Source of the DNA: Clostridia bacterium
GTDB lineage: Bacteria; Bacillota; Clostridia; Lachnospirales; Lachnospiraceae
DNA length: 49,347 nucleotides
Assembly (NCBI GenBank): GCA_910574835.1
Contig: CAJTDE010000033.1
Coordinates: 1 to 49,347 of the forward strand
Direction of reading: 5' to 3'
In this document: positions 1 through 21,159 of the stretch, piece after piece
Layout: every line of letters begins with the position of its first letter
How positions within the stretch are numbered: position 1 is the stretch's first letter
Notes under the pieces: generated by a model
What the model was told of the DNA's origin: nothing
Databases searched by the model: none
What the model saw: only the letters and a program-made list of their open reading frames with translations
Translations under genes and position numbers: made by a program

Positions 1-99
1 TGAGATTTACTATCGTTTTGTAGGAAAAATTGATTAAATAGGCATGGGGAATGTGCCGATTATGGCACTTCCCCGAAACACTGTCTTTAACTCATGTAA

Positions 100-432: not shown

Positions 433-439
433 GGATTGG

Positions 440-464
440 AATGGGACGGGTAAACTGTCCCATT
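440..464 (+). terminator. Hairpin after the TnpV remnant
   Basis: A perfect 8-bp stem (AATGGGAC 440-447, GTCCCATT 457-464) with a 9-nt loop lies just after the TnpV stop codon. It is followed by a weakly T-rich stretch. It would insulate the downstream restriction operon. Confidence 0.45.
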
Positions 465-497
465 TGTAAGTTTTATGCAACTTTAAGAAGAATCTAA

Positions 498-526
498 ATG
501 ACAATTTGGATATTTTGTAGTAAAAT
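498..526 (+). promoter_or_regulatory. Predicted sigma-A promoter for the hsdM operon
   Basis: ATGACA (498-503) and TAAAAT (521-526) are separated by 17 nt, placing a start site about 25 nt before the hsdM ribosome-binding site. It is the only good candidate before seven co-directional, closely spaced genes. Confidence 0.45.
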
Positions 527-558
527 TAATTTGGAAAATTATGCAAGGAGGTTGTCTT

Positions 559-2121: not shown

Positions 2122-2124
2122 ATT

Positions 2125-7100: not shown

Positions 7101-7318
7101 CTATTATCAATGAAGAAAAACTAAAGACAGAAGAAACACATAAATTTATAGACAATTCGTTTCGGGATGGCGTGTTGAAAACAACAGGAACGGATATTGA
7201 TGTTATTATGCCTGCAGTGTCACGTTTTGGCGGAGGTAACAGGGGTGAGAAGAAAAAACGGGTTATTGATAGGTTGATGGCGTATTATGAGAAGTATGTG
7301 GAGCTTGTAAATGCGTAA
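4163..7318 (+). CDS. hsdR: Type I restriction endonuclease subunit HsdR
   Basis: Motor and nuclease subunit of the type I enzyme: it translocates DNA with ATP and cleaves away from the recognition site. The N-terminal nuclease domain contains YDVTILVN followed by the HVELKRRG signature (PD-(D/E)XK type, about residues 155-175). Superfamily 2 helicase motifs follow: Walker A TTGSGKT (residues 326-332), DECH (426-429), and FGFTGTP; VVNMFLTGFDA and QAFSRTNR are the later helicase motifs. The 1,051-aa length is normal. ATG 4163 overlaps the hsdS stop (ATGA). The gene appears intact, so the window encodes a complete HsdM-HsdS-HsdR set. Confidence 0.97.
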   Translation: MSTFNMVASMNESTVVSEYIPESRRSDSYQSEADLENEFIRMLVEQGYEYLPIHTEADLIANLRKKIEQLNSCNFTDTEWERFFHKHIANANEGIVEKTRTIQEDAVKNMERDDGSTKNITLLDKKNIHNNRLQVINQYEVSQNEGAKFDNRYDVTILVNGFPLIHVELKRRGVAIREAFNQINRYQRDSFWAGSGLYEYVQIFVISNGTHTKYYSNTTRSAHIKEQEKNTNRGKKTSNSFEFASFWADANNKVISDLVDYTKTFLSKHTILNVLTKYCVFTSEELLLVMRPYQIAATEKILNRIEIATNYKKLGTLEAGGYIWHTTGSGKTLTSFKTAQLASQLDFVDKVLFVVDRKDLDYQTMKEYDRFQKGAANSNTSTAILKKQLEEDDAKIIITTIQKLDNFIRRYKGHEVFSRHIVLVFDECHRSQFGDMHTAITKNFKNYHIFGFTGTPIFADNAGSGKNADLRTTPQAFGDKLHTYTIVDAINDENVLPFRIDYIKTIKENEASHHKEKGQDRQVSAIDTEKALLEPKRIAKIVTYILEHFDQKTKRNRESFDFSKLMNVQEVASSQAKNRDRVEEIKESVRMKGFNSIFAVSSIDAAKSYYTEFKRQMDKLPQAAPAGQPHKLRVATIYSYGVNESENDDFVEDENSENTDGLDKSSRDFLEMAIDDYNKIFKTNYDTSSDKFQNYYKDVSLRMKNREIDILIVVNMFLTGFDATTLNTLWVDKNLKYHGLLQAFSRTNRILNSVKTFGNIVCFRNLEEETNNAIALFGDKEAGSVVLLKNFESYYNGYDENGKHFDGYVELIDKLKTLFPLGASFEGEKAEKEFIMLYGAILRMKNILFTFDNFEGKEILSERNFQDYQSEYIDLYQKYKSKSNEKKENINDDVVFEIELVKQVEINIDYILMLVKKYQQDGNQNKEIVVTIEKAVNSSMNLRSKMELIRNFLSRINAQTEVDGDWKKFVDEQRENDLAAIINEEKLKTEETHKFIDNSFRDGVLKTTGTDIDVIMPAVSRFGGGNRGEKKKRVIDRLMAYYEKYVELVNA

Positions 7319-7341
7319 TAAAATGTTTAAAGGAAATAAAT

Positions 7342-9204
7342 ATGATTTATGATCTTAACGAAGTAGTAGAAATGTTTCGTATGGCAGATGGATTAATATC
7401 TGAAAATCCTACGTTATTGTCAATGTCTACGGATCAGATATTTGATGAGTTGGATGATGGAACTGATAAAATGCGTCATATTCGATGGGGTGTTATGACA
7501 CGTGCTAAAATGAGGGAGTTAAAATCATTTGAGACTCAAGATATCATTGATTTTTTGCTTGCGATTGAAGAACATAATTTATTAGCTGAGTATATTGGAT
7601 TTATTTTGCAAAGTGAATATGATATAAGTCTATTAGAACTTTTACTTGAGGCATATCAGCAAGGAGTGCAAAAACAGATTCTGCCATTTGCTAAAGAATG
7701 TATTGAGTATGAGAAAGATTGTTTTATTGGGCAAATAGATATTATACTGGAATTGATAGATAATATTGGAGAAGGATTAGATAGAAATTTATTTTTAAAT
7801 GGATATGCGTATTTAGTTGTAAGTAAAAAAGAAGAAACATTGATTTTGGAGAAATATACATCAGACTATACAAAGGCATTAGAACAGTTGATAGTAAGAA
7901 TCGCTACTGAGTTATACAGCAAAAAGCGTGAAACTGCGGAGAAATGGTTAGATATATTTTTAAATGAGAAATCGGAACATTGTAGATTGATGGGAGTCGA
8001 GTTTCTCCATAGAAGTATCTTCTTGGATTGCAAATCTTTTGAAAACTATTTTGAATTTGTGGAAGCAAATTTTTGTGATAATAAGGTATTGTGGGAAGCA
8101 TTAATACCTGTATATGCGCAGTATTTATTAAATAAGAATAATGATTTATATAAGGAGAGCGTGAAAAAACGACTTTATGAAATAAAAGATAGTTATTTGA
8201 GAGAGAAAAGAATATTTTTACAATCAATAATGTATTACATACAACAATCTCAAGATATTGTAGATGTGATAGACAAAATAACCAATGTTAGTTTTGAGAA
8301 GGATAGTCAGATATTACAGCAATTAGACTATTATTTAGAATATAAATTTAAAGAAGATACTAATACAGCTATTAAAAAATTATATGATATATATAATATC
8401 AATTTGTATAAATTTAATGAACAGTTTTTGGCGTTGTTACCGCGTACATGTTCATTAATGAAGCAACAAATAAAAAATATAATGACTTTTTGGTGTGATA
8501 AATATTTGTACGGAAAAATTAAGGAATTTCTATTGTCTTTAGACATTTTTGCCCATGTAATTAAATTTGAAGATTTGATATATTTATTTGAGTTAGGGAA
8601 AATGACTAAAAAGGAATTGCTTGATATATTAGAGGGGATTTTGTTATTTACATTTAATGAGAAACGAATTGTTGATCTGGTATTTGGCATATCTGCTTAT
8701 ATAAAAGATAAAGATTTCTTTTTTGAATATTGTCGAGATAACATATATGTTAATTATGCAGGTAAATTAATAGAAAATGCATTTATTTATGCTAAGAGTG
8801 AAAATGAATACCAATCAGATTTAGCGTGTAGATTAGTTGAATATCACGAATTTTTTAAAAAGAAAATTCAACTGGGGTATGAGGATAAGGATTTTATACC
8901 AACGATTGAGCGACAAAGGATATATCAAGAATTAAGGTTTGAACAAAATAGGAAAATAAATGAACAAGCAGAGAAAAATTCTGTCTTTGCAAACATTATC
9001 CAAAGTAGGAAAATGAAATATGGTAAAAGAGTAGCTTTTGTACAAATAAACCGGAATGGAGAATTTTGTTATAATGTAAGTGAGTATGAAAATCATATTG
9101 TGAAAAGAGAATTACCATGTGATTTTATTAATGATCCTATAAAATATAAGCATTTGAAAGAGGAATATTTAAGAGAAAGAGGAAAAAATGAGACTCATAG
9201 TTAA
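7342..9204 (+). CDS. Uncharacterised 620-aa helical protein, first gene of a putative defence pair
   Basis: I do not recognise a family. The 620-aa protein is Lys/Glu/Ile/Leu-rich and appears almost wholly alpha-helical, like a HEAT/TPR-type repeat scaffold. There is no signal peptide, membrane segment or obvious catalytic motif. The C-terminal 80 residues change character (a charged helix, then a short beta-rich stretch around VAFVQINRNGEF). AAAGGAAA at 7329-7336 supports ATG 7342, 23 nt after hsdR. Its 3' end overlaps the next gene by 17 nt, so the two are probably translated together. Codon use is more AT-rich than hsdMSR. Position inside a defence operon suggests an anti-phage role (inference only). 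Confidence 0.8.
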   Translation: MIYDLNEVVEMFRMADGLISENPTLLSMSTDQIFDELDDGTDKMRHIRWGVMTRAKMRELKSFETQDIIDFLLAIEEHNLLAEYIGFILQSEYDISLLELLLEAYQQGVQKQILPFAKECIEYEKDCFIGQIDIILELIDNIGEGLDRNLFLNGYAYLVVSKKEETLILEKYTSDYTKALEQLIVRIATELYSKKRETAEKWLDIFLNEKSEHCRLMGVEFLHRSIFLDCKSFENYFEFVEANFCDNKVLWEALIPVYAQYLLNKNNDLYKESVKKRLYEIKDSYLREKRIFLQSIMYYIQQSQDIVDVIDKITNVSFEKDSQILQQLDYYLEYKFKEDTNTAIKKLYDIYNINLYKFNEQFLALLPRTCSLMKQQIKNIMTFWCDKYLYGKIKEFLLSLDIFAHVIKFEDLIYLFELGKMTKKELLDILEGILLFTFNEKRIVDLVFGISAYIKDKDFFFEYCRDNIYVNYAGKLIENAFIYAKSENEYQSDLACRLVEYHEFFKKKIQLGYEDKDFIPTIERQRIYQELRFEQNRKINEQAEKNSVFANIIQSRKMKYGKRVAFVQINRNGEFCYNVSEYENHIVKRELPCDFINDPIKYKHLKEEYLRERGKNETHS

Positions 9205-10774
9205 AGAATATATATCCCAACTAAAAGAAAAAGACGAACTTGATATATTAATAAGTCAAATATTTGTACAAAAAGGATATATTGCGGATAACCAACCTAA
9301 AACAGGAAATAGGCAATATGGGGTAGATATACAGTTACATAACGATGATGAACTTCTAATGTTTGTAGTAAAGCAGGGGAATATAGATAGGGAGATTTGG
9401 GATGGAGGCATTAATGCTGTTCGTCAAAGCTTGGATGAGATAAAAGATGTTACTATAAAAAATTTGACTACTGAAGAAAAGAAAAAATTAATTAAGATCA
9501 TAGTAGCTACAAATGGACAAAAGGAAGAATCTATTAAATTTAATTGGAATAATTATGTCGATAATAATCGTTTATGGAATGAGATTCCAATAATAATTGA
9601 ATTTATGGGAATTGATGATATTGTTAAAGAAATATTAGACAATTTTTTTAATGAGTATCTGTTTGATTCATCGCTTCATAGTGCGATGAGGAAAGCACTT
9701 TATTTTATTGGAGAGGGTGAATATAAACGAGAATATTATGAAAAAATTGTTGATTCTCTAATTGCAAATTTAAAAGACAATAAGAAGAAAAAGTTTGACA
9801 AAACTTGTGCGACATTGTATTTAGCTAGTCAAATGATTTGCCAGTATGCACATGATAATGGAAATAATAAGATTTCCATTATGGTTTCGGAGTATGTTGT
9901 TATAAAGTATTGGAAATATTTAGCACAAAATAATATGTTAGGAAAGCAGCGATATGTTGAATGGTTACTAAAGTTTTGTAAAAGTTATGAAAAATGGAAT
10001 GATATTTATGTAGAAAAAATTAGAAAGATAGTAGATAAAGAAGTCATATTACCAAATTATAACGTAATAGAAAACCGAGTATTATTATATGAAATATTGG
10101 GATATATAGCATCTTATGGGAATTATCTTATGGGTGTTAAGTCTCAAAAAGCGAAGTTGGTTTTGGATATGATAATTGGTATAATAAATGAATATCCCTA
10201 TTTTGAATACGCTCCATATGATTCAAGTATTGGAATAGTTATAATGGTTTGTAAAATTATGCATTTTTATAATTACGTAGATGGGATTGAAACATTAATG
10301 ACGAACCAAGCATATAGTTTAGTAGAGCATTATAAGTCACAAAGCAAATTTCCGGCACAAACGGACTCCTTTGAAGAAGCGGTAAAGATAGAAGAAAGTG
10401 GTGAAAAGGTAAATTATGAAGTTTCTGCTTTTTGGGGATATTATCTTTTGCTGATAGAGCAAATGAGTTCTAAGGAATTATATGAGTCGATAAAAGAATT
10501 TTTAAAAGTTGATCTTAAGAATGTTTCAAAATGTGTATGGTTTCTGAAAAAAGAGGAGGAGTTTCTTTTTTATGAACCTTTTGCAATGAATATGGCGGGC
10601 GAAGGAATAGAAATTACTATTGAGAAAACCTTTGAAGAGTTTTCTGCTAAAGTGCAATTTATAATGAAACAGTATGAAAAAGATATATTTTCATTTGACG
10701 AATATTCATTTAAAAGCCTAGAAGTAATAATTTGTCATTACTTTGGTTATATTCCAAGAGTAAAGTTTGAATAG
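9188..10774 (+). CDS. Uncharacterised protein with nuclease-like N-terminus, second gene of the pair
   Basis: A 528-aa protein, not recognised by name. The N-terminal 150 residues resemble a restriction-endonuclease-like fold: a helix around DELDILISQIF, then GYIADNQPKTGN, QYGVDIQ (D47) and MFVVKQGNID (K62). The usual Glu/Gln two residues before the Lys is Val60, so activity is uncertain. Residues about 160-528 are helical with no motif I can name. ATG 9188 lies within the end of the previous gene (17-nt overlap), implying obligate co-expression; the following AlbA_2-like gene starts 34 nt downstream. The arrangement of a helical scaffold plus a nuclease-like partner is typical of defence systems, but the function is inferred. 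Confidence 0.8.
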   Translation: MRLIVKEYISQLKEKDELDILISQIFVQKGYIADNQPKTGNRQYGVDIQLHNDDELLMFVVKQGNIDREIWDGGINAVRQSLDEIKDVTIKNLTTEEKKKLIKIIVATNGQKEESIKFNWNNYVDNNRLWNEIPIIIEFMGIDDIVKEILDNFFNEYLFDSSLHSAMRKALYFIGEGEYKREYYEKIVDSLIANLKDNKKKKFDKTCATLYLASQMICQYAHDNGNNKISIMVSEYVVIKYWKYLAQNNMLGKQRYVEWLLKFCKSYEKWNDIYVEKIRKIVDKEVILPNYNVIENRVLLYEILGYIASYGNYLMGVKSQKAKLVLDMIIGIINEYPYFEYAPYDSSIGIVIMVCKIMHFYNYVDGIETLMTNQAYSLVEHYKSQSKFPAQTDSFEEAVKIEESGEKVNYEVSAFWGYYLLLIEQMSSKELYESIKEFLKVDLKNVSKCVWFLKKEEEFLFYEPFAMNMAGEGIEITIEKTFEEFSAKVQFIMKQYEKDIFSFDEYSFKSLEVIICHYFGYIPRVKFE

Positions 10775-10808
10775 AAAAAAGATTAAAAACATATTAAGGT
10801 GGTGTGTT

Positions 10809-12521
10809 ATGCCATATTTTGAATATAGTAAGTCTGTAAAGAATATTGAATATTTTGAAATTCTTGAAATGCTCATGGAACGTTGGGAATATGAGATTGT
10901 TGAATTTAAGGAAGCCAAAGGAGGATATGATACAGATAAAATCGGAAGATATTTTTCTGCCATAAGTAATGAAGCAAATCTGCGTCAGCAGCAATATGGA
11001 TGGCTTATTTTTGGAGTTGGTGAGCAGAATAAGACAAAACAGATAGTCGGAACCTCATTTAAAAAGGGTGATAAAAGTTTACTTGAGCGTTTCAAATATG
11101 AGATTTCCAGAGATACTGCCAATGGAATGACATTTTATGATATTATCGAAATATTTCCGATTGTGAATGGCAAAGAATACCGAGTGCTTATGTTTAAAAT
11201 TCCTGCGGCAGCGACGGGCATTCCAACAGACTGGAAAACGAATTACTATGAACGGGCAGGGGAAAGCCTTGTTGCATTGAAACAGTATAAGATAGACGCG
11301 ATTCGTTCACAGGAACGTAAAGATTGGTCAAAACAGGTGTTAGAAAAGGCAACAATAGAGCATTTGGATAAGACTGCAATAGATTTGGCAAGAGAAAAAT
11401 ATAAAGAAAAAATGAATCAAGAGCATATTTCAGCAGAAGTGGATGCTATGAGTGATGAGCAGTTTCTTACAAAGATTAAGCTCATGATAGATGGTAAAAT
11501 TACACAGGCAGGAATGCTCTTGTTGGGAAATTCTGATTTTGATTATATGTTTCAGACAGCACCGAGTATTATGTGGAGACTGTATGGTGCAGATGGAATG
11601 GATAAAGATTATGCAATTTTTAAGATTCCATTTATCAATGTAGTGGATAAGGTGTTTGCGAAAGTACGAAATCTGACTTATCGTTATATGCCTAATCAGT
11701 TGACACTGTTTCCGATGGAAACAGAGCAATATAATAGTTGGCTAATTCGAGAGCTGCTTAATAACTGTATCGCTCATACGAATTATCAGTTAGGCGGAAG
11801 GATTTATGTGAATGAATTTGAAGACAAAATTAAATTTACGAATCCGGGGGACTTTATTCCACAGAAAATAGAAAATGTGTTGGAAGTAAGCTACAGTCCA
11901 CCATTTTATAGGAATAAACTTTTAGCGGATTCTATGATGGCATTTCATATGATTGATACTGCAACGTTGGGAATCCGCCGCGCGTATAATATTCAAAAGG
12001 CGAAATATTTTCCACTGCCGGACTACAATGTATCTTCGGGGGCACAAGTTGAAGTGACGGTATATGGTAAAACCTTGAATGATAATTATATGCATATATT
12101 GTATGACCATCAGGATTTAGATTTACAGACAGTGTTCTTACTTGATAGGGTTCAAAAAGGTTTAGTGATAGAAAAAGAGGATGTAGACAGATTGCGGGCA
12201 TTGAAGCTGGTAGAAGGTAGGATAACAAGTTTATATTTATCGGCATCGGCAGCTAAAAGCATTGATGAGAGTACAAACTATATTAAAAATAAGGGATTTG
12301 ATGACAAGTATTATAAGGATTTGATTGTTGAATATCTGAAACAGTATAAAAAAGCCAAAAAGAAAGATATTCGGGAATTGTTATGGGATAAGTTGCCAAA
12401 TGTTTTGAGTGATACTCAAAAAGAAAATAAGATTCATAATTTGCTTGCTTCATTGAAAAAGCAAGGAATTATTGGTAAGGATTCCGAAAATCAGCAACAA
12501 TCTAATTGGGTATTAAGGTAA
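10809..12521 (+). CDS. Schlafen/AlbA_2-domain ATP-binding protein (HATPase_c_4), island 1
   Basis: The N-terminal AlbA_2 (Schlafen-like) domain covers EYEIVEFKEAKGG through the GWLIFGVGE segment, a fold seen in nucleic-acid-binding proteins. A GHKL-type ATPase region follows, with RELLNNCIAHTNY as the N-box-like motif and FTNPGDFIP after it. The C-terminus (about residues 470-570) looks like a winged helix. AAGGTGG at 10796-10802 and 7-nt spacing favour ATG 10809, 14 codons inside the longest frame. It is the last gene of the hsd operon. Proteins of this type are often called putative transcriptional regulators, and relatives occur in defence islands; the role here is unproven. A second member lies at 17293-18942 in the same position relative to a tuf fragment. 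Confidence 0.85.
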   Translation: MPYFEYSKSVKNIEYFEILEMLMERWEYEIVEFKEAKGGYDTDKIGRYFSAISNEANLRQQQYGWLIFGVGEQNKTKQIVGTSFKKGDKSLLERFKYEISRDTANGMTFYDIIEIFPIVNGKEYRVLMFKIPAAATGIPTDWKTNYYERAGESLVALKQYKIDAIRSQERKDWSKQVLEKATIEHLDKTAIDLAREKYKEKMNQEHISAEVDAMSDEQFLTKIKLMIDGKITQAGMLLLGNSDFDYMFQTAPSIMWRLYGADGMDKDYAIFKIPFINVVDKVFAKVRNLTYRYMPNQLTLFPMETEQYNSWLIRELLNNCIAHTNYQLGGRIYVNEFEDKIKFTNPGDFIPQKIENVLEVSYSPPFYRNKLLADSMMAFHMIDTATLGIRRAYNIQKAKYFPLPDYNVSSGAQVEVTVYGKTLNDNYMHILYDHQDLDLQTVFLLDRVQKGLVIEKEDVDRLRALKLVEGRITSLYLSASAAKSIDESTNYIKNKGFDDKYYKDLIVEYLKQYKKAKKKDIRELLWDKLPNVLSDTQKENKIHNLLASLKKQGIIGKDSENQQQSNWVLR

Positions 12522-12540
12522 TGTCTTGGGTTGAGTATGG

Positions 12541-12786
12541 TTTACTCAAGATTTTACCCAAGGTTATTCAAGATTTAAACAATTAAAATTGTTGAAAGAA
12601 ACAATCATAGGGTAGCGGGAATAGGTAATACGGAATCGTTATATGAAGTCCGCGTGTAAATCGCCAGCCAATGGCTGGCAATTTAAAGACGAATGATGAA
12701 GATAAATTAACCCAAGCGGTATCCAAGGTTTACCCAAGACTTACTCAAGGTTTATCCAAGCTCGTGCTTCTAAAATGCTTCTAAAA
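12541..12786 (+). repeat. Degenerate 11-bp direct repeats downstream of the AlbA_2 gene
   Basis: Between the AlbA_2 stop and the tuf fragment are two clusters of a TTTAYYCAAGR unit: about three copies at 12541-12575 and five at exact 11-nt spacing at 12707-12761. They are followed by two perfect copies of an unrelated 11-mer, TGCTTCTAAAA (12765-12786). A perfect hairpin (GCCAGCC 12663-12669, GGCTGGC 12673-12679) lies between the clusters. No gene is seen in 12522-12886. The repeats could bind a protein or be decayed repetitive coding sequence. Confidence 0.7.
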
Positions 12787-12886
12787 TTTTTAATAATCAG
12801 AAAAATCAGATGATATTTGGGATAATATAGATAAAAAAATCCCCATTTTATCATGGTTTGCGATACAGACAAACGTACCGTAGCAA

Positions 12887-12940
12887 CGTGAGGGTGGTCG
12901 TACAGTAGGTTCTGGTCGTGTGGCTACGATTATTGAGTAA
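12887..12940 (+). pseudogene. tuf: 3' end of tuf (EF-Tu last 17 codons), copy 1
   Basis: The frame reads REGGRTVGSGRVATIIE and stop, which is the conserved C-terminus of elongation factor Tu. Nothing upstream of the CGT at 12887 matches EF-Tu, so only the tail is present. The same tail begins at the same codon at 19141. This is interpreted as an attachment-site copy left by an element that targets the 3' end of tuf. Confidence 0.85.
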
Positions 12941-12963
12941 TCAGTAAAAAGCTGGATTTTATA

Positions 12964-12994
12964 GGGCTTTCCGAGAAATCGGGAAGCCCTTTTT
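12964..12994 (+). terminator. Rho-independent terminator of tuf, copy 1
   Basis: An 11-bp stem (GGGCTTTCCGA with TCGGGAAGCCC, one mismatch), a GAAA loop and a following run of T. It sits 23 nt after the tuf stop as in a native tuf transcript, and now also ends transcription of the upstream island. Confidence 0.8.
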
Positions 12995-13050
12995 GAAACT
13001 TTGCAAGAACAAAAAAGTGTAAAGCGGTGCCAAAACGGTGCCATAAAAAG

Positions 13051-13096
13051 AACTCCGATGAAAATGGTGCCAAGTTTCATCGGAGTTTGTCTTTTT
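13051..13096. terminator. Bidirectional hairpin terminator
   Basis: A perfect 13-bp stem (AACTCCGATGAAA 13051-13063, TTTCATCGGAGTT 13075-13087) ends with a T-rich tract on the + strand and has a T-run (complement of the A-run at 13046-13049) on the - strand. It lies at the left end of island 2, directly after the tuf repeat and after the stop of the small - strand frame. Confidence 0.6.
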
Positions 13097-13241
13097 ACCA
13101 ACCTTTTATTTGCTTTACCTGTTCTGCTCGCTCTTTGTCTTTGTGGTACTGCAACTTGAACTGTATCGTTTCCACTACTTCCTTTCTTGCTTCATCGTCT
13201 AGCTGATAAAATGAAGTCAACAGGTTATCCACATCGGGCAT
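13095..13241 (-). CDS. Small 48-aa frame, possible C-terminal remnant
   Basis: A 48-codon frame (MPDVDNLLTS... to KQIKGW) that reads like a helical C-terminal tail, with LLTSFYQLDDEARKEVVE resembling the end of XRE-type regulators. No clear Shine-Dalgarno is seen. Its upstream extension is closed by a stop at about 13275, and the + strand gene starting at 13274 covers that area. It is either a genuine small gene or the tail of a regulator lost when the island formed. It ends at the strong hairpin 13051-13087. Confidence 0.3.
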   Translation of the reverse strand: MPDVDNLLTSFYQLDDEARKEVVETIQFKLQYHKDKERAEQVKQIKGW

Positions 13242-13273
13242 ACTATTCACAAAATATCGGGAGGCTTGCTGCT

Positions 13274-13522
13274 ATGGAAGAAGAAATTTTATTTGAAAGG
13301 CTGGCCCGTGAAAGGAATATCACGGTGGAGGAAATGCAGGCGATTATCTCGGCCCGCATTGAGGCCGGAATGAATGACCCTGACCCGGAGAAGCGGGCAC
13401 AATGGGAAAGGATACCTTGCGCCGGGAAGATACCCGCGCCGGAGGAGTGGCTCCGGTATGCGGTAGAGCGAATCGAGGTCGAAGGGCGCAGCGATCTGCT
13501 GCGCTGGTATCCGAACTTTTAG
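13274..13522 (+). CDS. Small Spo0A C-terminal-like protein of mobile elements
   Basis: An 82-aa acidic protein. The run MEEEILFERLARERNITVEEM followed by NDPDPEKRAQWERIP and PAPEEWLRYAVERI recalls the short proteins in Clostridial conjugative elements that are annotated as Spo0A_C (sporulation initiation factor C-terminal) like. GGGAGG at 13259-13264 places the start at ATG 13274; the longer upstream frame has no binding site. Its codons are visibly more GC-rich than the neighbouring island genes, suggesting a different source. A terminator follows at 13573-13616. The function is unknown. Confidence 0.6.
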   Translation: MEEEILFERLARERNITVEEMQAIISARIEAGMNDPDPEKRAQWERIPCAGKIPAPEEWLRYAVERIEVEGRSDLLRWYPNF

Positions 13523-13572
13523 GGGTGTGCATTTTTAAGGCACAGGCTCCGGCCCATAAAGAGAAAATATGA

Positions 13573-13620
13573 AAACAGCGGATTTGCACACCCTATCATG
13601 TGCCTTTCCGCTGTTTTTTC
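13573..13620 (+). terminator. Rho-independent terminator after the Spo0A_C-like gene
   Basis: A 10-bp stem (AAACAGCGGA 13573-13582, TCCGCTGTTT 13607-13616) followed by a T-rich run, about 50 nt after the stop codon. Confidence 0.6.
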
Positions 13621-13656
13621 TTTCCGTTTTGATTGTATTAAAGTTTGTCCCTTGAT

Positions 13657-13731
13657 ATGGGTTGGGTCCAGAAAATGAACAACATTCAGGCGAGGGCGGA
13701 GGAGATTGTGAGGGAAGAGATTATATATTGA
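13657..13731 (+). pseudogene. C-terminal scrap of a TnpV-like gene
   Basis: The frame encodes GWVQKMNNIQARAEEIVREEIIY and stop, matching the tail of the TnpV-like remnant at 100-432 (MNSIRARAEEIVREEIIY) at both protein and nucleotide level. Nothing upstream continues the homology. It is a 3' remnant of a second transposon copy. The rest of 13732-14001 holds no gene that I can support beyond a possible TACAAT -10 at 13929-13934. Confidence 0.7.
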
Positions 13732-14001
13732 CTATAATTTTGAAAGAACGTGGCGGAGGTCATGCTCTTTTGCTATAAGAAAAATGTTGCTTTTGGGGTT
13801 GTTTGATATAGCAATATTTTTACTATATGAAAAACCGACATAGAGCTAGATAAATATGGATTTCATGAAAAATTGAAGAAATCTTCAAGAACTTGTATGT
13901 TTTTGTTTTGTTGTTGAAGGATTTGTGGTACAATTTAGCATAGTAGACTATTGGACGCTGAACTGTATCCAGTTGCAAAATATAAATTGAAGGAAATTCC
14001 A

Positions 14002-14562
14002 ATGATAAGTAAAGAAATCAGCATAAAAATCGGCAAAGCAATAAAAGAAATATGGGTGAAGAACATACCAAAAGATTTTAATGAAGGGTATATTATCAAT
14101 GAAGACTGTTTGAAAATGGCACTCTGTTATCACTTGCGGAGAAAGCTGTCAGCAATTCTAAAGGAAAATGATTTAAGAATATATACAGAGAAATACTTTC
14201 CCGGTATAAAAAAGAAACCAGACATAATCATTGCACAGCTAAGAGATGAGTATGAAGAAAAAAGTCTGTACGCTTCCATCCGGGAAGAAGATGTTGTTGC
14301 ATTATTTGAATTGAAGTTTACAAGTGAAACGGCACAGAGTACAGCGGATTGGATGAAAGATGATTTGAAAAAGCTAAAGTATTATGTACAGAAAAGTAAG
14401 TTTCAGTGTCCTTTGTATTTTGCAGTGATTTATGAAGTGGAGTGCTGGTGGTTACACTGGTTGGATAAACGAAGTACAAATAATTGGGCATCGGGCAGAG
14501 TAACGGAATTGGATGCCGGGTGGATTGATGGAATAATGAATTATGAAGTCCATTCATATTAA
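14002..14562 (+). CDS. PD-(D/E)XK nuclease-like protein
   Basis: A 186-aa protein. KKPDIIIAQL followed by VVALFELKFTSE fits the PD-(D/E)XK nuclease core (Asp in PDII, Glu and Lys in FELKF). The N-terminal helix and CYHLRRKLSAILKENDLRIYTE also fit the fold. GAAGGAA just upstream favours ATG 14002; a TTG at 13951 opens a longer frame without a binding site. It precedes an XRE regulator and a brxA fragment, so it may be a leftover of a defence cluster or a stand-alone effector. The family is not named with certainty; an inactive nuclease fold used for binding is the main alternative. Confidence 0.7.
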   Translation: MISKEISIKIGKAIKEIWVKNIPKDFNEGYIINEDCLKMALCYHLRRKLSAILKENDLRIYTEKYFPGIKKKPDIIIAQLRDEYEEKSLYASIREEDVVALFELKFTSETAQSTADWMKDDLKKLKYYVQKSKFQCPLYFAVIYEVECWWLHWLDKRSTNNWASGRVTELDAGWIDGIMNYEVHSY

Positions 14563-14612
14563 AAGAACAATGAACATTTACAGATTCACATAGATAATAG
14601 AGGAGAAGAAAA

Positions 14613-14849
14613 GTGGACGTTTGTTATAACAAATTATTTAAACTGCTGATTGATAAAGGAATGAAAAAAACAGAGTTTCGTAAGTTGGTTGGTATCAGTG
14701 AAGGAACTCTTGCAAAGCTGTCATATAATAAAAATGTATCAATGGATGTCATAGTGAAAATTTGCAGAAAATTGAATTGTACTGTTGATGAAATACTGGA
14801 CGTATTACCGAGTCCGGTTAATGGGACAGATAAAAGTATAGGATCATAA
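14613..14849 (+). CDS. XRE/Cro-CI-type transcriptional regulator
   Basis: A 78-aa single-domain helix-turn-helix protein: NKLFKLLIDKGMKKTEFRK, then LVGISEGTLAKLSYNKNVS as the recognition unit and IVKICRKLNCTVDEILDV as the closing helices (HTH_26 type). It starts at GTG 14613 after AGAGGAGAAG. Its stop overlaps the following ATG region by one base. It directly precedes the brxA fragment; a small regulator ahead of brxA is a known BREX arrangement, so it may once have controlled that system. Confidence 0.8.
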   Translation: MDVCYNKLFKLLIDKGMKKTEFRKLVGISEGTLAKLSYNKNVSMDVIVKICRKLNCTVDEILDVLPSPVNGTDKSIGS

Positions 14850-14869
14850 TGGAAAGGTGTATATGCACA

Positions 14870-15109
14870 ATGGAAAGAAAGGCGTATAGTGCTGGAGCTA
14901 TAAAGCATTCTTTTTGGTTTATGGAATTTCGGAATGAGGTTAAGTTACGTTCTGAAGGAAAGACCTTTGAAGAAATCAGAGAGTTATGCAAAACCGAAAA
15001 CATATTTGCATCAGTTACACTGGAAAGAGCATTACTAACATACAATGCTGTTACGGCAAGAATTAAGGCATTAGGCGATAGTTTTTACCCAGTTTTTATC
15101 TGTGATTGA
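14870..15109 (+). pseudogene. brxA: brxA (DUF1819, BREX) 5' fragment
   Basis: The first 65-70 residues match BrxA/DUF1819: MERKAYSAGAIKHSFWFMEF, then SEGKTFEEIRELCKTENIF and TLERALLTYNAVTARIKAL. BrxA is normally about 200 aa, but here the frame ends after 79 codons, with the last few residues (YPVFICD) out of character. The break lies near 15085-15095, where a different gene's 3' end begins in another frame. ATG 14870 is preferred over 14849 because the protein family starts at this Met. No other BREX gene (brxB, brxC, pglX, pglZ, brxL) is present, so this is a relic. Confidence 0.7.
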
Positions 15110-15425
15110 TAGATTTGATATGAAATTTGATTCTTCAGCAAGTGATAATATACGTGCAATTTGGTCATATACGTTAGCATTGCTGCAAACATCAGAAAAG
15201 CAAATCGGTAATCATCCTGGAGTCTTAATATTTGATGAGCCAACACAGCATAGTATCGGTGCGGAAGATGCGAATGCATTTTTTAAAAGTATTATTATGC
15301 TAGGGAATAAGTGTCAGGTTATTGTTGGCATTACTGTGAACAATGCTGATATAAAAAATGTAATTTCAAACCTAGAACCGGAGAGGTATAAATATATTCA
15401 TATTGGCGAGAAAGCCTTTGTGTAA
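15093..15425 (+). pseudogene. 3' fragment of an ABC/SMC-like ATPase
   Basis: The frame carries only the C-terminal part of an ATPase: SASDNIRAIWSYTLALL, the Walker B region GVLIFDEPTQHSI and a final beta-hairpin segment ending in HIGEKAFV. The Walker A half is absent. It joins the brxA fragment directly, in a different frame, so an internal deletion probably fused two defence genes. The longest openable frame starts at GTG 15102, with no binding site. Nothing is seen in 15426-15573. Confidence 0.65.
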
Positions 15426-15573
15426 TGCTTGTTTTTGAGATTATCCAAAGGAAAATTTATTAATGGGGCTGCTAGGATTGCTGTATATGTATGAATATAT
15501 TGAGATAATGTCAAAATAGAATTGAGGATGTTGTACTTGGAAATGTAGATATATACGGAAAGGATGACTTTAT

Positions 15574-16083
15574 ATGATATCGCCAGATAAAGTGAGAGCA
15601 GTAGCAAAGAAAAAAGAGAACGAAAATTTTAAGTTTCGCACTTTCTTAAAATGTCATGCAGATGAGAAAGAATTAGACAGGCAATTCCTACACTTACATA
15701 AAGAACTCTTTGCAGACTATGATTGCAGCAAATGCAGAAACTGCTGTAAGATGTATAAAGGGAGCATTCCGACAGAAGATATTGACAGGGATGCACAATT
15801 TCTAGAAATAACACCTGAACAGTTTATTGATACTTACTTGGAAAAAGAAGAGTATGGCATAAACTATCAGACCAAGCATAAACCCTGTGATTTTTTGCAG
15901 GAGGATGGAAACTGTAAATTGGGAAAATGTAAGCCAGATAGTTGTAAGAAATATCCGTATACTGATCAGCCAGAAAGATTATCAAGTTTGCTGAGTATAT
16001 TGGATACGATAGAAATATGTCCAGTAGCTTTTGAGATTTTTGAAAGATTAAAGGAAGAGTATAGATTTAGATTGCATAGATGA
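15574..16083 (+). CDS. YkgJ-family cysteine-cluster protein
   Basis: A 169-aa protein with the zinc/iron-chelating cysteine pattern: CSKCRNCCKMYKG near residues 50-62, then CDFLQ, CKLGKCKPDSCKKYP at about 107-130 and a final CPVAFE. Eight or more cysteines are conserved in YkgJ/CxxCxxCC proteins, which bind a metal or Fe-S cluster; the substrate is unknown. AAAGGATG about 12 nt before ATG 15574 is a weak binding site. It is followed 26 nt later by the DUF2971 gene, and the two may be co-transcribed. The frame is intact. Confidence 0.75.
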   Translation: MISPDKVRAVAKKKENENFKFRTFLKCHADEKELDRQFLHLHKELFADYDCSKCRNCCKMYKGSIPTEDIDRDAQFLEITPEQFIDTYLEKEEYGINYQTKHKPCDFLQEDGNCKLGKCKPDSCKKYPYTDQPERLSSLLSILDTIEICPVAFEIFERLKEEYRFRLHR

Positions 16084-16109
16084 GACTGTAATGGCAGATA
16101 GGAGGCAAT

Positions 16110-17234
16110 GTGAAAGAAACAAATTTCCTACAGGAAGGATTTCGTAAGCCTGAAATTGAAAGACTAGATCCATATTATTATGTATGTGGAGGAAGATATA
16201 CACATGAAGAACTGGATAAAATGACTTGGGAGGAGTTTGGACTTAGAAGGCACGGAAGTATGCCCTCTAAACTATACAAGTATTATTCAAATAAAGTGAT
16301 TGATGGAATAAATTACTCTAAAGAAGCACTGGAGAATAATACGGTATATTTGCAAGAGATTAAAAAATTTGATGATAATTATGATTGTACGTTGTCAATT
16401 AATATAGAAGAATTTGCAAGACTGCGTATAGCGCATTATGCAAAGATATGTGGAATGGAAATAAATGAGGAATGGAGCTATAACAGATATGTGGTAGAAC
16501 TCTCGGCTTTTTTATATAATAAGATGTGTGGCGGAATAGACTTAGAACAAATATTTGGAATTAAACAACTGTCAACACAGGAAGATTATCGAAGGAATAT
16601 CTTTTGTTTGAATTTAAAAACAGTCTTTTTGAGTTGTGAAGGACAAGATAATATTTAGCAAACTGCTTTTTATAAGGCGATTTCAGATGAATATGCTGAA
16701 ATAACAAAGATGATGAATCGTTTTAGAATAGCATGTTTTACTACATCTCCATATATGATTAACATGTGGTCAAACCAATATGCTGACAATAATCAAGGAT
16801 TTTGCATTGAGTATGAAATGCCTGATTTGACTTGCAGAACGGATAAACTATGTAATAACTTATTTCCAGTCATTTATAGCGATGTAAGAACAGATGTATT
16901 AAGTAGATGTTTGGAGTATAGTGAAAAAGAACTGGACGAAGAGTATTTGTCTGCAATTTATAAGTATGGAGTGCTAGCAAAAAGTAAGTCTATGTGGAAA
17001 CCACAGGATGAGTGGCGTTTGGTATCATGTGACAACTTGCTGGCGGATAATTATAACTGTAAATTTTATCCCATTATTAGAGTATACTTAGGCGTGAATA
17101 TGACAAATAATCAGCGGAGAGAAATTATTGATATATGCAAAAGAAAAGGTGTTCCTTATGTTGGAGTTGTTAGAAATAATGAAAGATATCAGATGATGGA
17201 CTGTGAAAAGATGTGCGAAGAATGTATAAAATAA
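16110..17234 (+). pseudogene. DUF2971 protein interrupted by one in-frame amber codon
   Basis: Two frames (16110-16658 and 16710-17234) are parts of one 374-codon frame split only by TAG at 16656-16658; the intervening codons (QTAFYKAISDEYAE) read on in the same frame. Together they show DUF2971 features: LYKYYSNK near residue 53, FTTSPYMINMWSNQYADNNQGFCIEYE, and KSMWKPQDEWRLVS. The start is GTG 16110 with GGAGG at 16101-16105. DUF2971 proteins are common in defence and mobile regions; their activity is unknown. A recent nonsense mutation or sequencing error is the simplest reading; suppression cannot be excluded. Confidence 0.75.
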
Positions 17235-17292
17235 TTTCTTGGCATATCAAATGTTTCGTAAAAATAAAGTAAAATGATAGGAGGGCATATAT

Positions 17293-18942
17293 TTGACAAT
17301 AGCCGAGTTTGAGCAGGTTCTTTCAAAAGGAGAGAATTTAACCGTTGAATTTAAAACATGGATACATGCTAAGGATATGCGGGAGCGCATTTCTTTAGCA
17401 GTAGATGAACTTGTAGCATTTGCCAATGCAAAAGGCGGTACTGTTTATATGGGCGTTGAGGATGATGGAACAGTGACAGGCTGTAACAAATATGATGCAC
17501 AGAGAATTATGGAATCTGTCTATGACAGGACTCGCCCGGCGTTATTTACGGAAATAGAGGTGATTCACTATGAAGGAAAAGATGTACTGGCAATAAAAGT
17601 GGAGAAGGATGGAATGACATATGCCACTTCGGATGGTAGGTGCTTAAAGCGATTAGGCAAGAATTCAAAACCCTATTATCCGGACGAAATGAGTAATAAG
17701 TATGCTTCTATTCAAAGTCCTGACTTTTCAGGGCAGATTTTGGCGGATAGTACAATAGAAGACATAAATGTGCTGGAGATATATAATCTAAAGGAAAAAT
17801 TGAAAGTACGTGATCCGAAATCTTCCTTACCTGAATTGGAAGATATGTCTTTTTTGAGAGATTTAGGATTGATAAAAGAGGATGAAGGTGTTGACAGACT
17901 TACGATTGCAGGATTGCTTTTTGTGGGTAAAGAGACGGCGATTAACCGATTGCTGCCGCAGGCAGAGGTGATATATCTTCATTATTCAACAGACAATATG
18001 GAAGAGTATGATTCCCGGTTGGATTTAAAACAGCCGATAATATCTGTGATTGAACGTTTAACTGAGAAGATACAAAATACCAATAAGATTGTAAATGTAC
18101 AAGTAGGTCTGTTTCGGCTAGAGGTTGAGGACTTCTCGGAAAAGGTATTTCAAGAGGCGCTCTTGAATGCGTTATCACACAGAGATTATCTGAATATGGG
18201 AGCAGTGTATGTAAAGCATTATCCGGATAGAATTGTGATTGAAAATCCGGGTGCATTTCCGGAGGGAGTGAATGAGAAAAATATAATTACACATCCGTCT
18301 ACGCCGAGAAATAAATTGATTGCAGAGACATTACAAAGGCTTAAATATGTGCAAAGGACGGGACAGGGTGTCGATATTATCTTTCGCGAGATGATTTCTT
18401 CGGGGAAACCATATCCGCAGTATTACGCATACAGTGAAGCAGTGTCATTGACCATTTTCAGTGCGATTGACGATGTGAAGTTTGTTAAGTTTATTGCTAG
18501 AGAGCAAGACAAACTGCAAAAGATTCTGCCGTTGCCAGAACTAATGATATTGCGGTATTTGACAGATAATAAAAGAATCATATTGTCGGAGGTTCAGGGA
18601 TTGACGCAGTTACCTATAGCCGAGGCACGAAAAAGCTGTAATAATCTTGTGAAGGATGGTTTGATTGGATTATCTGGTAAGGAGTATATGCTGACAGCTA
18701 AAGTCTATGACGCAATTAAATCAGATGTAGAATACACCCAAGATACCGTGATTCGATATGTAAAAGCCAAAAGTTTGATAGAGGAATATTTGCAGTCTGC
18801 CGAATTTATTACGAATGAAAAAATCCGAGAACTATGTGGATTTACGAGACAGCAGGCTAGAAGTACTTTGGATAGAATGAGGTCTGAAGGAATATTGCGA
18901 TTGGAAGGGCAAGGACGTGTAGCTAAGTATTATAGAAATTAA
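17293..18942 (+). CDS. Schlafen/AlbA_2-domain ATP-binding protein (HATPase_c_4), island 2
   Basis: A 549-aa protein. The N-terminal AlbA_2 domain (residues about 10-125) contains ENLTVEFKTWIH and FANAKGGTVYMGVEDDG. A GHKL ATPase-like region follows, with EALLNALSHRDYLNMG (about 285-300), VIENPGAFPEG and RTGQGVDIIFREM. The C-terminal third carries one or two winged helices (about 405-470 and 490-549, ending GRVAKYYRN). It starts at TTG 17293 with AGGAGGG just upstream. It is not close in sequence to the gene at 10809-12521 but has the same domain order and the same place next to a tuf fragment. Likely a DNA-binding ATPase or regulator; role unproven. Confidence 0.9.
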   Translation: MTIAEFEQVLSKGENLTVEFKTWIHAKDMRERISLAVDELVAFANAKGGTVYMGVEDDGTVTGCNKYDAQRIMESVYDRTRPALFTEIEVIHYEGKDVLAIKVEKDGMTYATSDGRCLKRLGKNSKPYYPDEMSNKYASIQSPDFSGQILADSTIEDINVLEIYNLKEKLKVRDPKSSLPELEDMSFLRDLGLIKEDEGVDRLTIAGLLFVGKETAINRLLPQAEVIYLHYSTDNMEEYDSRLDLKQPIISVIERLTEKIQNTNKIVNVQVGLFRLEVEDFSEKVFQEALLNALSHRDYLNMGAVYVKHYPDRIVIENPGAFPEGVNEKNIITHPSTPRNKLIAETLQRLKYVQRTGQGVDIIFREMISSGKPYPQYYAYSEAVSLTIFSAIDDVKFVKFIAREQDKLQKILPLPELMILRYLTDNKRIILSEVQGLTQLPIAEARKSCNNLVKDGLIGLSGKEYMLTAKVYDAIKSDVEYTQDTVIRYVKAKSLIEEYLQSAEFITNEKIRELCGFTRQQARSTLDRMRSEGILRLEGQGRVAKYYRN

Positions 18943-18950
18943 TGTGTTTC

Positions 18951-19020
18951 AATGCGTTCTAAATGCGTTTTTTTGAGTGGGAGACGCATTTAAAAACGCA
19001 ATGAAAGCGAAACAGACGCA
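18951..19020 (+). repeat. Short ATGCGTT/ACGCAWT repeats downstream of the second AlbA_2 gene
   Basis: Within 70 nt there are two AATGCGTT words and three ACGCAAT/ACGCATT words. TAAATGCGT (18960-18968) and ACGCATTTA (18984-18992) form a perfect 9-bp inverted repeat that could be a terminator-like hairpin. The position mirrors the 11-bp repeats after the first AlbA_2 gene. The remainder to 19140 shows no gene. Confidence 0.5.
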
Positions 19021-19140
19021 ATTTGCTCCGTGATAACAAAAATTCAAAAAACCTCAGATACAAGGTGCATTTCAAAGAAAAAACCACCGAAAAAGCCCTG
19101 AAAATCACACAAAATTACCCCGATTTCCACCACAGAAAAC

Positions 19141-19194
19141 CGTGAGGGTGGACGTACAGTAGGTTCTGGTCGTGTGGCTACTATCATTGAGTAA
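19141..19194 (+). pseudogene. tuf: 3' end of tuf (EF-Tu last 17 codons), copy 2
   Basis: REGGRTVGSGRVATIIE and stop again, starting at the same CGT codon as copy 1. Upstream bases (to 19140) do not continue EF-Tu. The downstream side runs into core-like DNA (kptA), so this copy is taken as the rightmost junction of the tandem islands. Confidence 0.85.
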
Positions 19195-19217
19195 TCAATA
19201 AAAAGTTAGATTTTATG

Positions 19218-19247
19218 GGGCTTTCCTAAGAATAGGGAAGCCCTTTT
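19218..19247 (+). terminator. Rho-independent terminator of tuf, copy 2
   Basis: Stem GGGCTTTCCTA (19218-19228) with TAGGGAAGCCC (19233-19243), AGAA loop and TTTT. Compared with copy 1, the changed stem bases (CGA/TCG to CTA/TAG) are compensated, so the structure is kept. Confidence 0.8.
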
Positions 19248-19343
19248 GAAACTTTGCAACAGTGAAAAAGTTGTAAGCGGTGTCAAAACGGTGCCATAAA
19301 GTAGAAATTTTGTGAAGTTTGGTTATATATTAGAGAAAATTCT

Positions 19344-19440
19344 TTGACATATTTATAGTATAGTATTAATAGATTATAGGGTACTACCAATAGACGGTTA
19401 GCCCAGTATATAAGTGAAACCAGACAGGGCGGCTATTTTT
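19344..19440 (+). ncRNA. Possible short untranslated transcript
   Basis: TTGACA at 19344-19349 is followed at promoter distance by a weak AT-rich -10 (about 19366-19372). Some 60 nt later a short stem (GCCC 19401-19404, GGGC 19427-19430) is followed by GGCTATTTTT. This could specify a small RNA of about 70 nt. No protein frame fits. The evidence is weak and no RNA family is recognised. Confidence 0.2.
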
Positions 19441-19518
19441 GTGATTTATTGCTTCCTTTATTTAAAATACTATATTAGCGACCTATCTACTGCTTCACAA
19501 TGGGCGATAAGGCATATT

Positions 19519-20079
19519 TTATGCCTCAGCCACCCTCTCCAAATACTCAGCCGGCACCTTCTCCACCAGCCAAACCCCATTTTCCGACAAATAAAAAGTA
19601 TACCCATCCTTTACCATTCTACCAGTATCCACCTTAAGCACGCACGGAACCCCATGCCTCATTCCCACCTTCACAGCCGTTTCATAATCCTTCGATAGAT
19701 GAACATAAAGCCTGCTCCCCGCTCTCAGCCCTTCTTTCAAATTCAGAATACTACCCAAAAATCGAGTTGCCGTCCCATGATACAATATATCCGGCGGAAG
19801 AGTTGCTTTTAGTTCCAAATCCACCGCAATACTGTGCCCTTGGTTAGCTCTGATTTTCGTGCCGTCCTCGTTAAAGCTGAACCTCTTTTTATCATTCGTG
19901 CGGACAATTTCCTTTAACATATCCATATCCAGAGCCTTCCCCGCTTTATTTACTCCTTGAATCAGTTCTTCTACATCAGCCCAGCCGTGGTCGTCCAATT
20001 TAATTCCTGCGGCACCAGGATTGTGACGCAGGATCAGGCTGATAAATTTACTTATTTTTTTATAAGCACCATTTTCCAT
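19519..20079 (-). CDS. kptA: RNA 2'-phosphotransferase, Tpt1/KptA family
   Basis: KptA transfers a 2'-phosphate from RNA to NAD+, giving ADP-ribose 1'',2''-cyclic phosphate; in eukaryotes this finishes tRNA splicing, while the bacterial role is unclear. The 186-aa protein shows the family segments KISKFISLILRHNPG, LDDHGWADVEELI, ANQGHSI, LYHGTATRFLGSI and RLYVHLSKDYETAVKVG, including the Arg-His-Asn and YHGT NAD-binding residues. Length is normal. A promoter (TTGATC, 17 nt, TATAAT) lies upstream on the - strand. It is a single-gene unit facing the tuf repeat, and the first core-like gene right of the islands. Confidence 0.93.
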   Translation of the reverse strand: MENGAYKKISKFISLILRHNPGAAGIKLDDHGWADVEELIQGVNKAGKALDMDMLKEIVRTNDKKRFSFNEDGTKIRANQGHSIAVDLELKATLPPDILYHGTATRFLGSILNLKEGLRAGSRLYVHLSKDYETAVKVGMRHGVPCVLKVDTGRMVKDGYTFYLSENGVWLVEKVPAEYLERVAEA

Positions 20080-20239: not shown

Positions 20240-20540
20240 TGCTTTAATTAAAAAGTCATGTTAAGTTGAAAAATGTTGGTGAAAAATGTTAGGCCATGTT
20301 AGGTACGTTAGAAAAAGTTATGTAAGACAAGAATAATGAATCCTCCAAAACAGCCGTATAAATTGCATGAAAAATATAGTAAATATAGAAAGCATAGAAA
20401 ATATTTCCAAAATCACTATAGATTGTTCCAAATCACCATAGATTATTACACAATACCCACAGAGTACATCAAAATACTGAGAAAAAATTTATAAACTCCA
20501 AAATAAAAGTGATATTCCGCCCCCATATCCCGTTCTTATA

Positions 20541-20567
20541 TTGAAGGGCCTTTCAAAACAGTATAAT
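20541..20567 (+). promoter_or_regulatory. Predicted promoter for the sigma/anti-sigma operon
   Basis: TATAAT at 20562-20567 with TTGAAG at 20541-20546 (15-nt spacing) or TATTGA at 17 nt. The 525-nt gap 20080-20604 otherwise holds AT-rich DNA with near-direct repeats (for example TCCAAAATCACTATAGATT and TCCAAATCACCATAGATT around 20405-20445) and no gene. Confidence 0.4.
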
Positions 20568-20682
20568 AATATCTGTCACAGTACACAAATCAATTTACAG
20601 ACACATGCAATTACAGCAGAAAATTGACTTGATACCAATGCACTGTGAGATATATTATGAAACTGAAACAGGAGGTGAGATC

Positions 20683-21159
20683 TTGGAGGACGCAGAATAC
20701 ATAAGGATTGTTCATAAGTATCTGGACACCATATATCGGGTTGCCTTAAGCGGCAGCAAAAACCCTCACGACGCGGAGGACATTGTGCAGAGCACGTTTC
20801 TAAAGCTATTGGAGAATAAGAAGGAATTTCAAGACGAAGAGCACATCCGCAAATGGCTGATACGCGTAACGATCAACGAGGCAAACAGCCTTTGGCGCTC
20901 CTTCTGGAGAAAGAAAGTCATATCTTTTGAGGAGACATTAAAGGAACCGGAGTTCTTCGAGCCGGAGCAAAGCGAACTATTCTGGGCAGTACAAAAATTG
21001 TCCCCCAAATATCGAGAGGTAACATACCTCTACTACTATGAAGAATACAGCATAAAAGAAATTGCGAAGCTTCTTCACATCTCCGAAACAGCCATCCAGA
21101 CCCGCCTGATGCGGGCGCGGGAAAAACTACGAGAACAACTAAAGGAGGCGTGGAAATGA
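20683..21159 (+). CDS. RNA polymerase ECF-type sigma factor
   Basis: A group IV sigma factor that redirects RNA polymerase to stress-response promoters. Region 2 covers YLDTIYRVAL and KNPHDAEDIVQSTFLKLLE; the RKWLIRVTINEANSLWRS segment closes it. Region 4 covers LSPKYREVTYLYYYEEYSIKEIAKLLHISETAIQTRLMRAREKLR. GGAGGTGAGATC directly before TTG 20683 and the family-typical start MEDAEYIR place the start there; a frame open from 20605 adds 26 unlikely residues. At 158 aa the length is normal. It overlaps the next gene (ATGA), whose product probably holds it at the membrane. Confidence 0.9.
   Translation: MEDAEYIRIVHKYLDTIYRVALSGSKNPHDAEDIVQSTFLKLLENKKEFQDEEHIRKWLIRVTINEANSLWRSFWRKKVISFEETLKEPEFFEPEQSELFWAVQKLSPKYREVTYLYYYEEYSIKEIAKLLHISETAIQTRLMRAREKLREQLKEAWK

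Follow-up and report, generated by a model that had tools for sequence, protein, structure and literature searches.

Cis-mobilizable elements (CIMEs) and accretion are defined in PMC5704250, a review which also describes integrative and mobilizable elements (IMEs). An imperfect 54-bp direct repeat, which is the rpsI 3' end, flanks the esp pathogenicity island of Enterococcus faecium. The 5' end of this island is located downstream of tuf in strain U0317, which was explained as a rearrangement by the authors (PMC2858755). Here we describe a stretch of 49347 bases from a Lachnospiraceae genome (G000, 133 contigs), hereafter called the window. It comprises the entire contig C33, thus the left end of the window is a contig end. 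Within it, two copies of the 3' end of tuf, the EF-Tu gene, enclose a genomic island (island 2, also element E). With a probability of about 90 %, this feature belongs to a tandem array of IMEs that use the tuf 3' end as attachment (att) site. These elements resemble the IMEs of PMC5704250 in a tyrosine integrase, a predicted relaxase, site-specific insertion into a conserved gene end and tandem accretion; they differ in the target tuf and in carrying a 17-codon gene end with a terminator. In the main text of that work neither tuf nor elongation factor is mentioned. According to the authors of PMC2858755, the esp island came to end near tuf by rearrangement and not through an integrase specific for tuf. 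A tuf-specific integrase or IME was not found in the open PMC literature, although tuf may be listed in subscription articles or in the supplements of island databases; PMC12884075 does not mention tuf, and PMC10581047 uses tufA only as marker. The stacking of IMEs and a CIME-like relic at a gene end is of a known kind, here with tuf as the target.

The two direct repeats (12887-13047 and 19141-19300) were 88.3 % identical over 162 columns (E ~1e-48), at a spacing of 6.25 kb. Both begin at the CGT codon of REGGRTVGSGRVATIIE-stop and continue through TAA and a terminator-like hairpin, for which folding predicted a 12-bp stem. Directly 5' of either repeat, tuf sequence was not present. These properties, namely the start at the same tuf codon, the inclusion of stop and terminator and the lack of preceding tuf sequence, had been claimed by the original prediction and were all recovered. 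The GC content was 0.26-0.43 in the first 20 kb of the window and mostly 0.45-0.53 beyond 22 kb. An ordinary tandem duplication of a segment with the tuf end, without site-specific recombination, would also leave two direct repeats 6.25 kb apart. However, the two repeats are preceded by unlike DNA, which in each case matches a different element right end elsewhere. Moreover, all 46 displayed copies of the bare tuf end, in the following called tails, begin at the same base, and tuf or a tail precedes the integrase in 65 of 78 loci of relatives. Simple duplication was rejected, being contradicted by the common exact junction in otherwise different islands, and is considered extremely improbable.

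The loci of relatives were obtained by searching an alignment of four tuf-associated integrases against genome contigs. This yielded 197 relatives, of which the best 80 (78 loci) were analysed; named records among the relatives were Clostridia. Upstream of the integrase, tuf was present in 52 loci, a bare tail in 13 and neither in another 13, 11 of which have less than 2.5 kb of left flank. A downstream tail was detected in 34 loci. Elements with att sites at both ends were represented by 25 loci with tuf upstream and a tail downstream, and by 5 more with tails on both sides. The distance from tuf or tail to the next tail, measured in the 30 loci with both inside the 10-kb flanks, was 6.1-17.7 kb, which is small for an integrative and conjugative element. 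Thirty loci picked for long contigs were traced into their genomes with a 74-nt tail query, and the query matched in all 30 genomes. Nine of them carried at least three tuf or tail sites on one contig (G061, G063, G071, G076, G081, G082, G084, G085, G087). In G082, Eubacterium plexicaudatum ASF492, every site is located on one 6.3-Mb contig in the order tuf, element with Xis, Int, Rep and Mob, tail, damaged element, tail. The proposal that elements integrate into the tuf 3' end and restore it with their own copy is hence backed by the loci of relatives. The stacking of elements, also proposed before, is seen as tandem order in relatives and in the window as at least three elements: D, E (island 2) and a remnant F.

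The junction was profiled over 25 loci with tuf and a downstream tail. The identity between tuf and tail was 0.28 at position -1, 1.00 at positions 0-4, counted from the start of the CGT codon, and 0.88-1.00 across the first 11 nt. Past these 11 nt, third codon positions differ between tuf and tail with the protein kept. The tails represent the last 17 tuf codons. Of 48 tails, 46 were displayed with 30 nt upstream (L062 and L103 lie too near a contig end), and all 46 start with CGTGA(A/G)GG(T/C)GG. Site and exact junction are defined by these alignments, from which we infer that the crossover would occur within the 11-nt core CGTGARGGNGG. A second motif, GGTGYC-N5-GGTGYC, occurred 54 times in 1.19 Mb of loci, 49 times within 250 bp of a tuf or tail end. 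It followed the tuf or tail end at 34 of 97 sites, 22 of these at +88-90 nt, and stood ahead of a tail at 15 of 45 sites, always at -120/121 nt; in its exact form it is absent from most sites. The window holds an exact copy at 13026 and one with a single mismatch at 19279. The distances, together with the Arm-DNA-bind_4 domain of the integrase described below, suggest that the motif represents putative arm-type integrase sites. Homologous recombination or gene conversion with tuf, acting in place of an integrase, could have produced tails with the observed high protein identity to tuf ends. Yet the boundary is sharp to one base, tuf and tail within a locus show wobble differences, arm-type sites lie at fixed distances and the integrase is clade-specific. 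This origin was rejected on the junction profile and the differing element ends and retains very little probability.

In G000 a single gene scored above the EF-Tu cut-off, on contig C7, and four copies of the tuf 3' end were present: one on C7, two on C33 and one on C55. The original prediction had suggested to look for an intact tuf with a recombinase gene and for further tails, and both searches were successful, the recombinase gene being located beside the single intact tuf on C7. There, reading on directly from tuf, come an xre-like gene (opposite strand) and an xis-like gene, then the genes encoding a tyrosine integrase, a protein of the AAA_25 family and a relaxase of the Mob_Pre type; the names xre-like and xis-like are our assumption, aided by kinship with the C55 gene. 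The integrase matched PF00589 (Phage_integrase, E 7e-24), has Arm-DNA-bind_4 and SAM-like domains and contains the motifs GCRIGEL, HDLRHS, GHKD and TYGHL, to which we assign a presumed catalytic role. The relaxase matched Mob_Pre with E 3e-20; with the MobV model it reached 49.5 bits against a cut-off of 100 bits, the gene being split by an insertion sequence (IS). Positions 12887-13247 of the window are 93 % identical to the C7 tuf end plus the left end of the C7 element, so that island 2 must have originated from an element of this kind.

In the proposed mechanism, the tyrosine integrase with Xis would recombine the 11-nt core, which starts at tuf codon 379, with the core of the element. The element would bring the remaining codons, the stop codon and its own terminator, so that tuf is rebuilt. 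The old tuf end would be displaced to the far side and could become the target for further elements. Island 2 would be movable only with the integrase of another tuf element. The roles of Int and Xis, the function of the arm-type sites and the mobility as such are predicted ones.

The integrases of 61 genomes around G000 indicated how strictly the site is kept. Thirty-four integrase matches were obtained at E <=1e-40. All four integrases with >=54 % identity were located beside tuf or a tail, in contrast to none of the 30 with <=45 % identity, around which tuf, tail or arm motif were absent up to 8 kb on each side (Fisher 2e-5); at four of these 30 places (L229, L234, L239, L244) the contig ends less than 4.2 kb upstream. 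The same scan was positive for four of four known tuf-sited integrases. The sister integrases away from tuf (L229-L258) are 35-45 % identical. A tree was calculated from 103 distinct integrases, with 106 of 108 loci long enough and 24 of the 30 non-tuf places included. On one side of a branch with a support of 100/100 it grouped 66 tuf-sited integrases and 13 without assigned site, and this clade appears to be dedicated to tuf. Among sequences of solved structures, the C7 integrase matched PDB 6emy, 6en0 and 6emz best (E 4.5e-14), which we take to be integrases of the Tn1549/Tn916 type. Elements of that type choose their sites loosely, whereas the clade of the C7 integrase keeps to one gene end.

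Island 2 lacks such an integrase. A recombinase between the repeats, its absence already noted in the first reading of the sequence, was not found by Pfam on selected open reading frames (ORFs) nor by tblastn with the C7 and C55 integrases. C7 and C55 integrase, Xis, Rep and Mob had no match in the window and none among the Pfam-scanned ORFs. The att tails are kept at both ends (12887 and 19141), and the left end (13047-13247) as well as the right end (19028-19140) match other elements. Beyond the tail, 37 loci match the left end past 13070; the match ends inside xre at 13244-13248 in 36 of them and at 13179 in L108. The losses comprise the larger part of xre and the complete xis, int, rep and mob. 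Judging from these comparisons, island 2 (12887-19140) is a CIME-like relic, and the suspected decay is borne out by the elements of relatives. It agrees with the CIMEs of PMC5704250 in having both ends, in lacking integration and transfer genes and in its tandem position, features known here from the sequence; its recombination module was lost by a deletion starting in xre. In the damaged element of ASF492, the end of xre (from residue 105) is joined to the end of int (from residue 293), which is the same kind of decay. Island 2 could instead be an intact element of its own kind, normally mobilised in trans, since both ends are kept and other integrase-damaged elements persist, as in ASF492. 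This is rather unlikely: the left-end homology breaks within xre at 13244-13248, leaving 50 of 160 residues, and a TnpV fragment and a partial BrxA follow the break.

To the right of island 2, core-like DNA had been expected to abut the second repeat. This did not hold, as about 230 bp of the left end of another element come first. The segment 19192-19420 follows tails in L017, L052, L065 and L094 too, with an xre-like match coming next in L094, and thus looks like element DNA. At such left ends a small hydrophobic peptide is encoded (L094:20447-20548, L065:19506-19604), which presumably resembles type I toxins and may belong to an addiction module. The peptide was not found at the copy of the left end in the window (F), and Rfam gave no match in L094 20000-21068. 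The sequence shared with G002 and G005 as chromosome starts near 20501. The gene kptA is whole in G007, partial in G005 and was not found in the examined stretches of G002 and G004. In G007, kptA and the region of the extracytoplasmic function (ECF) sigma gene follow tuf on one contig, with kptA 4.5 kb away and 99.3 % identity over 8.4 kb, which establishes, for this close relative, a link between tuf and the right flank of the window. The IS between tuf and kptA in G007, presumably of the ISL3 type, is a single copy, so the join is credible. A degenerate tuf tail was observed in L034:4900-5700 (contig C4 of G004), between the ECF sigma gene and a preceding sequence that was read by eye as the rpsI end. 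The position of this tail points to a rearrangement between integration hot spots.

The C7 element is interrupted in mob by an IS with rve and AAA_22 genes, presumably IS21-like. This IS is multi-copy (L013:8986-12456 on C7), its ends being common to twelve other contig ends of G000. Target duplications of 6 nt, identified by eye, pair the contig ends C24/C12 and C44/C49, thus contigs are pairable in this way; the C7 element was not paired with any contig by a target-site duplication. C55 opens with the other IS end followed by the C-terminal part of mob. In relatives, matches to both mob parts not more than 600 nt apart formed 28 pairs, 24 of them at 54-60 nt in one frame. We infer that the C7 element probably runs on in C55 as far as the tuf tail C55:7678. 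The element behind this tail, the second on C55, possesses an xis and an integrase of its own as well as CHC2 primase and VapE domains. A further recombinase-like gene of divergent sequence (L015:2356-3357, PF00589 just under the cut-off) was noticed in the distal part of the first element on C55; it had no match in the 78 loci. The primase and VapE domains of the second element, together with VapE matches in 6 of 78 loci, would suit phage satellites resembling phage-inducible chromosomal islands. The C7 Mob, however, has matches in 41 of 78 loci, and among the 46 loci of >=14 kb there are 36 that match Mob or Rep. These figures argue rather for IMEs, homology being counted anywhere in the locus and packaging genes not being searched for. 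A phage satellite nature of the elements is therefore regarded as unlikely.

Empty sites were sought by setting 41 after-tail flanks against 20 stretches that follow tuf in genomes where no clade integrase had been found; six pairs matched. L077 and L088 share with G022 a gene X, 35-38 % identical and without Pfam match, that may be cargo itself. The ABC-type region of the window with G015 and G011 was dismissed as an empty site (24-47 % in short pieces, not proof), as were the weak pairs L054 with G011 and L109 with G046, likewise not proof. The tail flank of L069 was rejected as core since in 41 relatives of G068 it matched several places of one contig, and looks like element DNA. G007 and G013, which have a common terminator, were discarded as native element-free tuf ends because their terminator proved to be the left end of a different element subtype (G007 versus L114 or L050, 92 % over about 430 bp). 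For excised circles, 4 of 6 records of a phage collection were examined and 5 of 7 loci on viral contigs scanned; a terminal repeat was absent from the 4 whole phage records and from the viral contig L177. Plasmid matches were limited to 4 records, all below 60 % identity.

Several observations weigh against a tandem IME array at tuf or against parts of it. A clean empty site, which the original prediction had hoped for, was not found among the relatives compared, and the best candidate is a 35-38 % similar gene in one genome versus two loaded loci. An excised circle was not seen, few whole records being suitable. L051 and L090 have 10 kb of left flank each without a recognised tail; on the contig of L090, tuf and a tail lie further left, with L090 behind them. 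L051 and L081 share an altered left end: near 8884 in L051 and near 765 in L081, other sequence stands in place of the initial part of the tuf tail. In G013, two separate long contigs hold tuf and the core region, thus the order is not fixed within the genus. The order tuf, C7, C55 and C33 would form one array, and it is this linkage that is least secured: past the IS, the matched C7 DNA sits on other contigs than tuf in the relatives having it, and no overlap or common end joins C55 to C33, so that the succession C7-C55-C33 is a presumed one. C33 begins in a repeat common to C59 and C10. G000 is, moreover, a draft genome with 4.63 % contamination. Finally, the excess of differences in the tuf end treated below was weaker for G013 and G002 (6/43 each versus 53 and 51 of 1134 in the body) and absent versus G012 (3/43 versus 69/1134).

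Table 1 Features of the window and their evidence
Feature	Position	Strand	Evidence or remark
Element D, right-hand part	1..12886	+	TnpV, type I restriction-modification (R-M), OloAB-like pair, Schlafen/AlbA-type protein; Pfam/PADLOC
Right end of element D	12730-12886	+	12730-12975 matches L124 at 88 %; left side cut by contig end
tuf tail 1, 17 codons REGGRTVGSGRVATIIE + TAA	12887..12940	+	Presumed att core = first 11 nt
Terminator-like hairpin of tail 1	12963..12990	+	Fold, -25.1 kcal/mol for 12938-13000
GGTGCC-N5-GGTGCC, putative integrase arm-type site	13026..13042	+	89 nt past last tail codon
xre remnant at the left end of island 2 (50 C-terminal residues of 160)	13098..13247	-	Homology ends 13244-13248
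Rest of island 2 (E)	13248..19027	+	No int, xis, rep or mob found
TnpV-like fragment in island 2	13662-13727		
Partial BrxA in island 2	14849-15109		
CxxCxxCC in island 2	15574-16083		
PDC-S31-like in island 2	16110-16658		
DUF2971 in island 2	16710-17234		
Schlafen/AlbA-type in island 2	17293-18942		
Right end of island 2	19028..19140	+	Matches left of tails: L104 93 %, L017 87 %; 19028-19107 in L049 89 %
tuf tail 2, 17 codons + TAA	19141..19194	+	
Terminator-like hairpin of tail 2	19217..19244	+	Fold, -20.9 kcal/mol for 19192-19255
Putative arm-type site, one mismatch	19279..19295	+	88 nt past last tail codon
Left-end remnant of further element F	19192..19456	+	19192-19420 matches L017, L052, L065; 19207-19420 L094; end 19456 by eye
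kptA, flanking gene	19519..20079	-	Pfam; variable among relatives, not certainly core
Start of sequence common to relatives as chromosome	20501..21159	+	L017, L028 from 20501; ECF sigma gene 20605-21159

In element D, type I R-M genes were located beside an OloA-like (weak, 5e-5) and OloB-like (8e-68) pair (window 541-10774), and C55 harbours BsuBI/PstI-type R-M and GmrSD-type genes. Elements at tuf thus carry defence genes. Rfam gave no match in the window from 12800 to 20700. A 15-nt tandem repeat (21469-21588) lies within an ORF (21150-21668) adjoining the ECF sigma gene, and positions 29016-34457 encode a protein of 1813 aa with Peptidase_M60, fibronectin III and F5/8 type C domains.

Between the tuf genes of G000 and G007 we counted 21 differences in the 1134 nt of the body, all of them outside its last 120 nt, one in the 11-nt core and 10 in the 43 nt after the core (Fisher 4e-8). 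Both ends are element-derived, from different subtypes. Compared with G005, 10 of 43 nt differed after the core versus 57 of 1134 in the body. Forty-five distinct tails showed 253 synonymous and 16 non-synonymous codon differences to their consensus, and 47 distinct tuf ends 252 and 26, where single random changes would give 45 to 117; these counts are not independent events, and the tails were chosen by protein similarity. Tails with no gene preceding them stay coding. Recent displacement could be a partial explanation of the synonymous excess in tails.

In many Lachnospiraceae, the last 17 codons of EF-Tu and the terminator are probably supplied and repeatedly swapped by mobile elements. Silent tails would then be under protein-level selection, each being sometimes the working end of tuf, and the tuf 3' end would serve as a hub for IMEs, relics and defence cargo. 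The 11-nt target is defined, and the integrase clade keeps to one essential gene in the genomes examined, which is of use for the genetics of gut Lachnospiraceae and for the automatic finding of element borders. The arrangement accounts for assembly breaks and for clusters of defence genes near tuf. It offers a clean example of mobile DNA that owns the end of an essential gene, and the accompanying signature of selection can be tested.

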